This document shows positions 14,198-24,498 of a stretch of 60,263 nt of DNA, piece after piece (the stretch's first letter is position 1; each line of letters opens with the position of its first letter). A program made the translations under genes and the position numbers. This DNA comes from Actinomycetota bacterium (GTDB taxonomy: Bacteria > Actinomycetota > Thermoleophilia > Miltoncostaeales > Miltoncostaeaceae). The stretch covers positions 1-60,263 of the forward strand of contig CAUJCX010000021.1 in NCBI GenBank assembly GCA_963169235.1, read 5' to 3'. Below the pieces are notes generated by a model. It saw nothing but the letters and a program-made list of their open reading frames with translations. It had not been told where the DNA came from and made no database searches.

Positions 14198-14680
14198 GTG
14201 GATCCCCGCACCGGCTCCGGCGCACCGCTGTCGCCCACGCCCGACACCCACGACACGGTGGCGAGTTTCGGCGACTACCCGGCCGCGCAGCACGCCGTCG
14301 ACCTGCTGTCCGACAAGGAGTTCGACGTGCGCGACGTACGCATCGTCGGGCACGGCATGACGTCGGTGGAGATCGTGACCGGGCGCCTGACCAACCTGAA
14401 GGCGACCCTCCTCGGCGCCGGCACCGGCGCGTGGTTCGGCCTGTTCGTCGGCCTGCTGCTGGGCCTGTTCGCCGCCGACACCGAATGGGTGCGCATGGTC
14501 GCCGCGGGCATCGCCATGGGCGCCGCGTTCGGCGCCCTCTGGGGCCTCCTGACGCACCTCGGCACGCGCGGCCGGCGCGACTTCTCGTCGGCGCGGACGC
14601 TGGTGGCGACCCGCTACGACGTGATGGTGCCACGCGACCGGGCCGAGGCCGCCCGCCGCCTGATCGCCGCCGGGCGCTGA
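14198..14680 (+). CDS. General stress protein 17M-like membrane protein
   Basis: 160 residues from GTG 14198 behind a good CAGGAGG. After a disordered N-terminus comes the YflT/GSP17M signature (VASFGDYPAAQHAVDLLSD, VRIVGHGMTSVE), then a glycine-rich double hairpin membrane segment (GAGTGAWFGLFVGLLLGLF and MAAFGALWGLL region) and a cytoplasmic tail. Related proteins are induced by general stress. Function unknown. Convergent with the small HTH gene. Confidence 0.85.
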   Translation: MDPRTGSGAPLSPTPDTHDTVASFGDYPAAQHAVDLLSDKEFDVRDVRIVGHGMTSVEIVTGRLTNLKATLLGAGTGAWFGLFVGLLLGLFAADTEWVRMVAAGIAMGAAFGALWGLLTHLGTRGRRDFSSARTLVATRYDVMVPRDRAEAARRLIAAGR

Positions 14681-14697: not shown

Positions 14698-14964
14698 CTA
14701 CCCGTCCCCGTCCTTCTCCTTCACCTTCGCCTTGCCGCCGGCGGCGCGGAAGCGCTGCTGGGCGCCCTGCTTGGTCAGCCCGTACAGCGCGCCGATGCGC
14801 GACCACGACAGCCCCGCCGCCCGCGCGTCGCGCACCAGATCGTGCTCGATGGCCTCCGCGAGCTCGCGCAGGCGGCGCATGGCGTCGACCCGTTCCAGCG
14901 GCTCGGCCGCAGACTGCACGTCGGCCCACGCATCGGCCAGATCGCGTTGGGGGTCCTTGGCCAC
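14698..14964 (-). CDS. Small HTH DNA-binding protein
   Basis: 88 residues. An N-terminal helical half (LRELAEAIEHDLVRDARAAG) leads into a helix-turn-helix GLSWSRIGALYGLTKQGAQQRF, resembling sigma-factor region 4 or small actinobacterial HTH proteins, and a Lys/Asp-rich tail. The start is GTG 14964, leaderless: TACACT lies 6 nt upstream. Its promoter faces the TTGAC operator array and the lysine-rich micro-ORF, so it is the obvious candidate to bind that array and to regulate itself; that is inference. Confidence 0.8.
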   Translation of the reverse strand: MAKDPQRDLADAWADVQSAAEPLERVDAMRRLRELAEAIEHDLVRDARAAGLSWSRIGALYGLTKQGAQQRFRAAGGKAKVKEKDGDG

Positions 14965-14984
14965 GCGTCCAGTGTATCCCCGCG

Positions 14985-15046
14985 GTCAATCAGGTGTTGA
15001 CGTTGGCGTCAACGTTTGCTTGACTCCCCGTCAACGTGATGTTGAC
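14985..15046. promoter_or_regulatory. Helically phased array of six alternating TTGAC half-sites
   Basis: TTGAC and its complement GTCAA occur at 14985, 14997, 15008, 15020, 15030 and 15042, in strictly alternating orientation, with centres 10-12 bp apart. Two pairs form perfect palindromes: GTTGACGTTGGCGTCAAC (14996-15013) and GTCAAC-N5-GTTGAC (15030-15046). All half-sites lie on one face of the helix, as expected for cooperative binding of a dimeric regulator. It lies between the divergent HTH gene and the micro-ORF. Confidence 0.7.
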
Positions 15047-15066
15047 CGCACGAAAGGAGGCGAGAC

Positions 15067-15117
15067 ATGGCGAAGAAGAAGGACAAGAAGGGTAAGAAGG
15101 GCAAGAAGAAGAAGTAG
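15067..15117 (+). CDS. 16-residue lysine-rich micro-ORF
   Basis: ATG to TAG encodes MAKKKDKKGKKGKKKK, with 11 Lys of 16 residues, all AAG codons. A full-strength AAAGGAGG Shine-Dalgarno ends 6 nt before the ATG, and the operator array lies just upstream, which together argue for real translation. It might be a nucleic-acid-binding peptide or a leader peptide that senses lysine or translation speed before the secreted-protein gene at 15254. The 136 bp from 15118 to 15253 hold no other gene that I can support. Confidence 0.55.
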   Translation: MAKKKDKKGKKGKKKK

Positions 15118-15253
15118 ATGCCCGACACCACCGGGGTGCGGGTCGCGCTGCGCACGCGCCGAGCCGCACCCGTGGGTGTCCGCAGGCCCCCGGTCGCCCT
15201 CGCGCCAGGCGACGACGGCGTAGCCTGGGCCGGTCTCCGACCCGGGAGGAACC

Positions 15254-15793
15254 ATGCCCCGCATCTGCGTGCCGGTGGGCATCGCCTGCCTCGGCGCCGC
15301 CGCCGCGTTCGCCGTCCCCGCGCACGCCGCCGACACGCGCTGTGATCACCGCTTCGGCGCCGTCTCCATCCAGGACGACGTCATCGTGCCGCCCGGCGCC
15401 ACGTGCCGCCTGGCCGGAACGCGCATCAGCGGCGACGTGACGGTGCGGCCCGGGGGCACGCTGCTTGTGTGGGGCGCGCGCATCACCGGCGACCTCGAGG
15501 CACGCCGCCACGCCCGCATCACCGTCGCCCCGCGTGGACGCGCCGCCACCCGCGTGCACGGCGACGTTCTGCTGGCCCGCGGGCGCCGCACCACCGTGGC
15601 GCGCGCGGTCGTCAGCGGCGACGTCGTGCTGGTGGGCTCCCGCGGCCGGGCGACGATCACCGGCAACGTGGTGACCGGCATGCTGCGATGCCGGCTCAAC
15701 GTTCCAGCACCGGTGGGCGGGGGCAACCGCGTGGAGGGCGGCGGCACGGGCCAGTGCGTCGGCCTCACGATCGCGCCGTCCGGCCCCCGCTGA
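15254..15793 (+). CDS. Secreted beta-helical (bactofilin-like) protein
   Basis: 179 residues. Signal peptide with a likely cleavage after AHA (about residue 25). The mature part is a run of short beta-strand repeats (SGDVTVRPGGTLLVWGARITGDLEA, VHGDVLLARG, VSGDVVLVGSRGRATITGNV in pieces), the pattern of a bactofilin-type right-handed beta helix, here exported rather than cytoskeletal. Four Cys (two near the mature N-terminus, two near the C-terminus) could form disulfides. A GGGAGGAACC Shine-Dalgarno precedes the ATG. Function unknown. Confidence 0.75.
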   Translation: MPRICVPVGIACLGAAAAFAVPAHAADTRCDHRFGAVSIQDDVIVPPGATCRLAGTRISGDVTVRPGGTLLVWGARITGDLEARRHARITVAPRGRAATRVHGDVLLARGRRTTVARAVVSGDVVLVGSRGRATITGNVVTGMLRCRLNVPAPVGGGNRVEGGGTGQCVGLTIAPSGPR

Positions 15794-17368: not shown

Positions 17369-17845
17369 CTAGGTGAGCGTGCTGTGGACGATGGCGAACT
17401 CGATGGGGTGCTCGATCGGCCACAGCTGCAGGCGGTAGAACCCGATCTCGTCCTCGTGATCCTCAAAGCTCACGTCCTTGGCGCTAAAGAGCACCCCAAG
17501 ACGACCAGGAGGCGTGGGGATCGTCCACTCGACGGAGTCGTTCTCACCCCGAATACCACCCGGGCCCACCGGGAACCACCCCTGAGTGACGTGCTGCCAC
17601 TCCTCATGGTCATTGGGTGGCTCCTCATCCCATACCTCAACGACGGAGCCGGTCGGGCCTCCCCACGACAGAGCGCTGATGACGCACCCGCCAATATTAT
17701 CTGAGTGGATCCCACCCTTGTACCCCGTGAAAGCAACGTCATCGGGCAATGACGGGTCAGGCGGCTCGACACCGTGGAGCGATCCAATCACAATGCACGA
17801 ATGAGTTGCCGTTAAGACGTGGCAGCGACGCATCGCGATTCCCAT
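17369..17845 (-). CDS. Immunity-like protein, cassette 1
   Basis: 158 residues; one of three tandem paralogues. Conserved blocks: VEVWDEEPP, EEWQHVTQGWFPVG, a VEWTIPTPPGRLGVLFSAK strand pair, GFYRLQLWPIE and EFAIVHS. It is acidic, with no signal peptide or membrane segment, so cytoplasmic. It follows by 32 bp a frameshifted NucA/NucB nuclease tip, with GAAGGGAG correctly spaced to its ATG. This arrangement suggests the immunity protein of a polymorphic toxin. Fold order resembles ComJ/Nin, the inhibitor of Bacillus NucA, but only by eye. GC content is clearly below that of flanking genes. Confidence 0.75.
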   Translation of the reverse strand: MGIAMRRCHVLTATHSCIVIGSLHGVEPPDPSLPDDVAFTGYKGGIHSDNIGGCVISALSWGGPTGSVVEVWDEEPPNDHEEWQHVTQGWFPVGPGGIRGENDSVEWTIPTPPGRLGVLFSAKDVSFEDHEDEIGFYRLQLWPIEHPIEFAIVHSTLT

Positions 17846-18323: not shown

Positions 18324-18809
18324 CTATTGCTCGAAGATGCTGTGGATGATCGCGAACTCGATGGGGTGCTCAATCGGCCACAGCTGCAGACGGTAGAACC
18401 CGACCTCGTCCTCGTGATCCTCAAAGCTCACGTCCTTGGCGCTAAAGAGCACCCCAAGACGACCAGGAGGCGTGGGGATCGTCCACTCGACGGAGTCGTC
18501 GTCCTCACCCCGAACACCACCCGGGCCCACCGGGAACCACCCCTGCGTGACGTGCTGCCACTCCTCATAGTCATCGGGTGGCTCCTCATCCCACACCTCA
18601 ACGACGGAGGCAGTCGGCCCTCCCCAGGTAAGAGCGTAGATGACACACCCGCCGTTGTTGAAGGCGCCAATTGCTCCCATGTAATGCTCGTCAATCTCGG
18701 TGAATGCTGGCAGTGCAGGATCTCGCGGCTCAACGTCATGGCTCGATGCAAACACCATGCCGTACTCGAGGGCAGTCAAGACGTTGCAGCGACGCAGCAA
18801 GAGACCCAC
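18324..18809 (-). CDS. Immunity-like protein, cassette 2
   Basis: 161 residues from GTG 18809, with AGAGGAG at a good distance. It is the closest paralogue of cassette 1: VEVWDEEPP, GWFPVGPGG, GRLGVLFSAKDVSFED and LWPIEHPIEFAI are shared, while the N-terminal 60 residues differ (FTEIDEHYMGAIGAFNNGG). That N-terminal variability with a constant core is what one expects of immunity proteins adapting to toxin variants. It follows the nonsense-mutated nuclease tip of cassette 2. The frame is intact although its toxin is dead, so it may still be selected. Confidence 0.75.
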   Translation of the reverse strand: MGLLLRRCNVLTALEYGMVFASSHDVEPRDPALPAFTEIDEHYMGAIGAFNNGGCVIYALTWGGPTASVVEVWDEEPPDDYEEWQHVTQGWFPVGPGGVRGEDDDSVEWTIPTPPGRLGVLFSAKDVSFEDHEDEVGFYRLQLWPIEHPIEFAIIHSIFEQ

Positions 18810-19050: not shown

Positions 19051-19530
19051 CTACCCCAGAGTGCTGTGGACGATCGCGAACTCGATCGGCTCGACGATCG
19101 GCCACAGTTGCAGGCGGTAGAAGCCGCTCTCGTCCTCGTCGTGCTCAAAGCTCACGTCTTTGGCGCTGAAGAGCACACCGAGGCGGCCCAGGGGCGTGGG
19201 GATCGTCCACTCGACGAAATCGTGATCCTCCCCCCGAATACCACCCGCGCCCACCGGGAACCACCCCTGGGTGACGTGCTGCCACTCGTCATGGTCATTG
19301 GGTGACTCCTCATCCCATACCTCAACGACGGAGCCGGTCGGGCCTCCCCACGTAAGAGGCGTGATGACGCACCCGCCGTTGTTGAACGCATCAATGGCCC
19401 CCTTGTAGAAGGTAATGCCTGGATCAGTCGGAAGCGCGGGGTCACGGGGCTCAACGTCATCGATCGATCCGATACCCATACAGCGCTCGAGGGCTGACAA
19501 TATGTTATGCCGTTGCACCAAGACACCCAT
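19051..19530 (-). CDS. Immunity-like protein, cassette 3
   Basis: 159 residues from ATG 19530, with CAGGAG upstream. Third paralogue: VEVWDEESP, DEWQHVTQGWFPVG, a variant TPLGRLGVLFSAKDVSFE and GFYRLQLWPIVEPIEFAI. It shares the FYKGAIDAFNNGG N-terminal region type with cassette 2. The frame runs back without a stop into the upstream nuclease tip, making a continuous 240-codon frame from GTG 19773; I prefer the internal ATG because it matches the start of the other copies and has its own Shine-Dalgarno. Confidence 0.75.
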   Translation of the reverse strand: MGVLVQRHNILSALERCMGIGSIDDVEPRDPALPTDPGITFYKGAIDAFNNGGCVITPLTWGGPTGSVVEVWDEESPNDHDEWQHVTQGWFPVGAGGIRGEDHDFVEWTIPTPLGRLGVLFSAKDVSFEHDEDESGFYRLQLWPIVEPIEFAIVHSTLG

Positions 19531-19800
19531 TCTGCACTCCTGTGTTAGCACTGTGGCGCGGTATGCCTCACCGTGGAGGATGCGCTTGCGTGCATACTGC
19601 CGCCGGATCAGCTTGGCCTGTCCGTCATTCTCGCTTTCGGGTACCCACCGCCGACTCGCCAGGCGGCCACTGTAACGCCCGCCTTCCACCTTGCTGGCGA
19701 ACGGGTACTCGTCGCAGGTACACGCGCTGCCCCTGGGCCGCCTGCCGCGGACGTTGTGGGACGGGCCACGCACTGCAGGTGACCGTCGACGTTCGACACA
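19531..19800 (-). pseudogene. NucA/NucB nuclease toxin tip, cassette 3, fused in frame to the immunity gene
   Basis: The best-preserved tip: CTCDEYPFASKVEGG, GRLASRRWVPESEND and IRRQYARKRILHGEAYRAT. The NucA/NucB signature residues Asp and Glu are intact. Compared with cassettes 1-2, whose tips end in V-R-stop, a 2-bp loss near GTG-C-TAA removes the stop, so the frame continues through LTQECR into the immunity gene. Upstream the domain is lost within 80 bp of the rpoC terminator. No start or secretion module remains. Confidence 0.7.

Positions 19801-19938: not shown

Positions 19939-24498
<4,560 letters not shown>

Follow-up and report, generated by a model that had tools for sequence, protein, structure and literature searches.

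The window (the whole stretch of 60,263 nucleotides analysed here) very probably contains a real, apparently undescribed and self-regulated microprotein system. We judge it likely, on comparative sequence evidence, that a small HTH autorepressor and a free-standing Lys-rich microprotein make up a self-contained, divergent two-gene unit. An operator array lies between the two genes, and the features considered below are the following.

14698–14964, minus strand: HTH protein of 88 aa with a GTG start, the proposed repressor (profile matches, A1 alignment, AlphaFold)
14971–14976, minus strand: −10-like TACACT, ending 6 nt from the GTG start, in the predicted leaderless promoter for the HTH protein (geometry kept in 32/35 loci)
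14985–15001: operator 1, GTCAATCAGGTGTTGAC (shuffle test and genome-wide count)
15008–15024: operator 2, GTCAACGTTTGCTTGAC (shuffle test and genome-wide count)
15030–15046: operator 3, GTCAACGTGATGTTGAC (shuffle test and genome-wide count)
15053–15060, plus strand: Shine-Dalgarno (SD) sequence AAAGGAGG (from the sequence; SD-like elements precede most related Lys ORFs)
15067–15117, plus strand: Lys micro-ORF MAKKKDKKGKKGKKKK, encoding the proposed polycationic microprotein (beside operators in 31/35 loci)
15127–15176, plus strand: GC-rich hairpin, a possible terminator, 9 nt past the Lys stop codon (−33.4 kcal/mol)

Three tandem operators between the HTH gene and the Lys ORF

The array occupies positions 14985–15046, between the HTH gene and the 16-codon Lys ORF. 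The original prediction described six TTGAC/GTCAA half-sites of alternating orientation with centres 10–12 bp apart, and these were found where it had placed them, at 14985 (minus), 14997 (plus), 15008 (minus), 15020 (plus), 15030 (minus) and 15042 (plus); the centre-to-centre steps are 12, 11, 12, 10 and 12 bp. The conserved unit of the array is GTCAA-N7-TTGAC, which is present in three perfect copies with dyad spacings of 23 and 22 bp. With a helical repeat of 10.5 bp, the dyads fall at about 0, 69 and 103 degrees round the helix, so that the placement of all sites on one helix face, as originally proposed, holds roughly but was overstated in the strict sense.

Whereas the window has three perfect copies of GTCAA-N7-TTGAC, none appeared in 100 dinucleotide shuffles of it, which excludes a chance origin of the array. 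The whole genome (2.94 Mb) contains no perfect copy besides these three. TTGAC alone is not enriched in the window (62 occurrences observed, 55.9 expected); what is unusual is the arrangement of the half-sites, not their abundance.

A ClpC2-like HTH protein and its predicted leaderless promoter

No family in Pfam, NCBIfam or PADLOC scored above the cut-off for the HTH protein, and a Foldseek search against the PDB gave nothing significant, with partial HTH matches only. The AlphaFold model is entirely helical, with a mean pLDDT of 89.7. When compared with solved structures, profile A1 of the HTH family matched RelI (9sdc) with an E-value of 1e-10 and residues 4–72 of ClpC2 (8ada) with an E-value of 6e-5, and it picked up ClpC2 genes in genomes of the phylum at about 1e-13. 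As judged from these profile matches, the HTH protein is a homologue of the antitoxin RelI and of the ClpC2 N-terminal domain. The Clp_N sensor domain is absent from the 88-aa protein (no match in Pfam); it therefore appears to be ClpC2-like in regulation, yet not a ClpC2.

The HTH gene had been called leaderless, and its TACACT element, which ends 6 nt before the GTG, supports this. In 32 of the 35 related loci, the end of a TANNNT lies 6–7 nt before an in-frame HTH start codon, a spacing that predicts leaderless transcription of these genes. The −10 element, or a matching −35 element, falls within an operator in many of the loci, and occupancy by the repressor should therefore block the HTH promoter.

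The genome of the window has a second, weaker HTH match (L014, G000:C30:2905-3087; E 5e-10), with one TGA in the matched frame and no operators. The convergent neighbour of the HTH gene (14200–14680, plus strand) encodes a membrane protein with a YflT domain (Pfam E 1.6e-19), that of a heat-induced stress protein.

The Lys micro-ORF and the hairpin that follows it

The Lys micro-ORF of the window starts with the ATG at 15067 and has 16 codons and a stop codon ending at 15117; its coordinates and its SD sequence agree with the earlier description. No TANNNT is found between the operators and the SD sequence, and the promoter of this ORF is not obvious. The products of the 31 Lys ORFs beside operators are 13–85 aa long (median, 17 aa) with a median Lys content of 68%, and 26 of them have a net charge of +9 to +13, though residues and length vary. 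The SD sequence, start, frame and stop stay constant while the length changes. Lys codons are nearly all AAG (427, against 6 AAA), and synonymous variation is seen in the codons for Ser, Asp, Gly and Ala (TCC/TCG/AGC, GAC/GAT). Pfam has no family for the 57- and 46-aa Lys-rich versions (the 16-aa peptide being too short to search).

The hairpin of the window is weak evidence taken by itself, as its z-score against dinucleotide shuffles is only −1.2, not exceptional for its composition. At the related loci, the hairpin 3′ of the Lys stop codon has a z-score below −2 in 22 of 31 cases (median, −4.5).

Conservation of the operators with both genes

The original prediction proposed a search for the array together with the Lys ORF in other genomes, and the combination proved to be conserved in relatives. 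A pattern search of related genomes gave one further array beside an HTH gene, in a genome of the same family and another genus (G016), with the Lys ORF MSKKKSKKKDKKKKKGKKGKKK across the array and a neighbourhood different from that of the window.

We carried out a wider search from each of the two genes. The search starting from the Lys ORF covered one genome per species in 84,980 species, with a pattern of an SD sequence, M-x-KKK and KKK-stop; operators were not in the query. GTCAA-N7-TTGAC was present upstream in 13 of the 52 matches, all 13 actinobacterial: eight from Pseudonocardia (two of them nearly identical), one each from Granulicoccus, Nakamurella, a Frankiaceae MAG and an Actinomycetota MAG, and the G016 record. 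A divergent HTH gene adjoins the array at 11 of these 13 loci. In 18 whole genomes hosting a Lys ORF, the HTH protein (E < 1e-25) went with the operators: the 12 genomes that have operators all encode it, and the other six do not. For one of these six (L048), the contig stops before the upstream region becomes readable.

The search starting from the HTH protein used the HTH alignment alone as the query, the Lys ORF playing no part; profile A1 had been built from Lys-linked HTH proteins and so favours close relatives of these. The sample of 249 Pseudonocardiaceae genomes, 200 genomes of the Nakamurella order and 197 Propionibacteriaceae genomes yielded 23 further usable loci. Each of them has one or more perfect operators, and a Lys-rich ORF (14–85 aa, mostly about +10 in net charge) lies across the operators in 19. 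The four exceptions are L165, where the operators face a protein of roughly 100 aa, L234, where they face an MFS-like transporter, L233, where nothing is evident opposite them, and L189 (1834–2313, Pseudonocardiaceae), where the product opposite is a coiled-coil protein, about 160 aa long, with the Lys-rich start VGKNKKKAKSNG, which looks as if it were an extended Lys peptide. In P. autotrophica and P. halophobica, almost identical in sequence and here counted as one case, the HTH gene is on one contig and the Lys ORF on another, each with operators of its own, which fits action in trans. Overall, a Lys ORF lies beside the operators in 31 of the 35 loci, and the dyads are mostly 21–27 bp apart, with a few wider spacings. 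The original prediction of a compact, perhaps autoregulated system thus gained support: a range of actinobacteria carry all three elements (HTH gene, operators and Lys ORF) side by side, and ClpC2, for which autorepression is proven, has the same operator.

Lys micro-ORFs without GTCAA-N7-TTGAC and without a related HTH protein were seen in L046, L058 (Kineosporia), L062 (Nostocoides), L079 (Dactylosporangium) and L088 (Virgisporangium), several with a strong hairpin past the stop codon. The Lys peptide is therefore not strictly tied to the HTH regulator, and another regulator may drive these ORFs. The matches of the Lys-ORF scan from Chloroflexi and Dormibacterota (L051, L053, L056, L059, L065, L066, L070, L071 and others) form a recurring class of micro-ORFs, MAKKKAAKKPAKKAAKKTSKKK and variants (MAKKKAAKKP...), of histone-H1-like composition; they have no operators and were put aside as a different class.

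Distribution and possible origin of the unit

Beyond close relatives, the flanking genes are not common to the loci and the HTH gene alone is shared; the gene after the Lys ORF differs among related loci and is often on the opposite strand. In an even sample of the phylum (396 genomes), only the window's own copy of the HTH gene was found at E < 1e-15. The two-gene unit therefore appears, from sequence searches, to be sparse outside the Pseudonocardiaceae, the Propionibacteriaceae, the relatives of Nakamurella and the rarer lineages named above, across which the two genes have been either retained together or transferred.

In a tree of HTH sequences, which is poorly resolved (82 columns, with several partial ClpC2 rows), the HTH protein of the window groups with a Propionibacteriaceae sequence (97/92) and that of G016 falls near relatives of Nakamurella (97/79). 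No array and no HTH match were found in G001, a genome of the same genus as the window. The placement of the two HTH proteins in different groups and the empty G001 would fit separate lateral acquisitions, with the reserve that the tree is short and weak.

A phage origin was rejected: no Lys ORF is present on any of the 30 viral contigs (L193–L222) that have doubled operators, and viral Lys-ORF matches lack operators. Beside the doubled GTCAA-N7-TTGAC, a recognised HTH gene of the present family lies on nine of these contigs, and none was recognised on the rest. A plasmid origin was likewise rejected, as a tblastn search of plasmids with the HTH protein of one relative found nothing.

Comparison with ClpC2, RelI and related HTH genes

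ClpC2 of M. tuberculosis (Rv2667) is a proven autorepressor with the operator CGTCAAC-n5-GTTGACG and a putatively leaderless promoter; its Clp_N sensor domain binds cyclomarin A, which lifts the autorepression, and as described it controls only itself (Taylor et al. 2023, PMC10030653). The published operator features are found in the window, with the core GTCAA-N7-TTGAC three times and TACACT 6 nt before the GTG. The two systems share a homologous HTH region, the same operator in repeated copies and a leaderless gene with operators over its promoter. They differ in that the HTH of ClpC2 is fused to the Clp_N sensor domain, that ClpC2 has no Lys ORF, and that its paired operators are 28–29 bp apart, against mostly 21–27 bp at the Lys-linked loci. 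In a sample of the phylum, doubled operators lie mostly 2–3 nt upstream of HTH-Clp_N fusion genes of the ClpC2 type.

For ClpC2, the 2023 study proposed that R185/R189 in the C-terminal domain contact the DNA and that the N-terminal domain serves for dimerisation (PMC10030653). Since stand-alone HTH proteins sit at the same operator, our comparison suggests instead that ClpC2, too, reads the operator through its N-terminal HTH; the recognition part of this HTH lies beyond residue 72 and thus outside the solved fragment. The present unit thus bears on how ClpC2 itself recognises DNA.

RelI, the proven antitoxin of RelS-RelI (Rv2664), was called ClpC2-related by its authors (Han et al. 2026, PMC13284704) and is, like the HTH protein of the window, a stand-alone HTH-type protein (85 aa; homologous at E 1e-10). 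RelS is a 78-aa RelE-like RNase, and RelSI forms an operon, upstream of which the authors detected no inverted repeats (PMC13284704). In contrast, no RelE-like toxin gene is present in an operon with the HTH genes studied here; their conserved partner is the divergent Lys-rich ORF, and no other gene is shared. A further arrangement (L003, L005 and L012) likewise combines GTCAA...TTGAC sites with the start of a small HTH gene, but a separate Clp_N protein follows it (L003, Pfam Clp_N E 4e-9), no Lys ORF is present and the HTH belongs to another branch.

Proposed mechanism and alternatives

We propose that a dimer of the HTH protein would bind the tandem GTCAA-N7-TTGAC operators between the two genes and repress both its own leaderless promoter and that of the Lys microprotein. 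Upon release or removal of the repressor, a short monocistronic mRNA with a strong ribosome-binding site would be made and presumably translated into a Lys-rich peptide with about ten net positive charges, which might act by its charge on a polyanion. The most plausible role for the peptide is, at a guess, binding of polyphosphate, RNA or DNA; because the charge is nearly constant while length and residues vary, a charge-based function is the simplest guess. Some carriers, such as Granulicoccus and Nostocoides, come from groups known for polyphosphate accumulation. AlgP of Pseudomonas, which associates with polyphosphate granules and whose repeats bind DNA (PMC9239181), is an analogy only: the likeness is confined to a low-complexity, Lys-rich composition, and AlgP, built on KPAA repeats, has 352 aa, whereas the Lys peptides are mostly 13–26 aa long and have a dedicated repressor. 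We tentatively raise the possibility, with more doubt than conviction, that genome-encoded α-polylysine microproteins of actinobacteria (13–85 aa, mostly about +10) act by charge on a polyanion (polyphosphate or RNA), each under a dedicated, sensorless repressor of the ClpC2/RelI type, and would form a new class of regulated bacterial polycations.

The peptide might instead be an anti-repressor that binds the HTH protein or the operator DNA and so creates a feedback switch. With the sensor domain of ClpC2 missing, the unit needs another input; the peptide would be co-regulated with the repressor, and a polycation could compete for operator DNA. However, its freely varying sequence fits a specific protein contact poorly, and we regard this role as rather unlikely. 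A toxin-antitoxin pair, with the HTH protein as the antitoxin and the Lys peptide as the toxin, has in its favour the small size, sparse occurrence and apparent mobility of the unit and the fact that the proven antitoxin RelI is the best structural relative by sequence. Its close RelS-RelI-like form was rejected, the RelE-like partner being absent and the layout divergent with strong operators. The Lys peptides, moreover, lack a fold and catalytic residues and vary freely in length, and the Lys ORF is sometimes apart from the HTH gene. We therefore consider such a pair improbable.

If the micro-ORF were a by-product and a small regulatory RNA the functional product, the predicted short transcript with a hairpin at its end and the near-exclusive use of AAG, giving a purine-rich repeat RNA, would be accounted for. 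The retention of the SD sequence, start, frame and stop despite changes in length, the synonymous variation and the plainly coding 57- and 85-aa versions leave this reading a slim chance. The original prediction also offered the ORF as a Lys-sensing leader for the gene at 15254; such a leader would act by attenuation or stalling. In its favour are the repeated Lys codons behind a strong SD sequence, the position of a gene further along this strand and the GC-rich hairpin in between. Against it, the genes downstream are unrelated among relatives and often on the other strand, terminator-like hairpins usually come directly after the Lys stop codon (that of the window being strong in energy if not in z-score), some relatives have Lys-rich versions of 36–85 aa, and it is the HTH gene upstream that is conserved with the ORF. 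This part of the prediction gained no support, and we consider a leader extremely unlikely.

The repressor–microprotein unit, as we read it, puts an autorepressor of the known ClpC2 type in charge of an unexpected target: a gene that encodes almost nothing but Lys and is too short for routine annotation. In the open-licence literature, we found no description of Lys-rich small proteins of actinobacteria.

Elsewhere in the window, just beyond rpoC (19939–24498, minus strand), three related ORFs lie in tandem on the minus strand (17369–17845, 18324–18809 and 19051–19773), the first without a Pfam match; they share the motif GGCVI..L.WGGPT.SVVEVWDEE.
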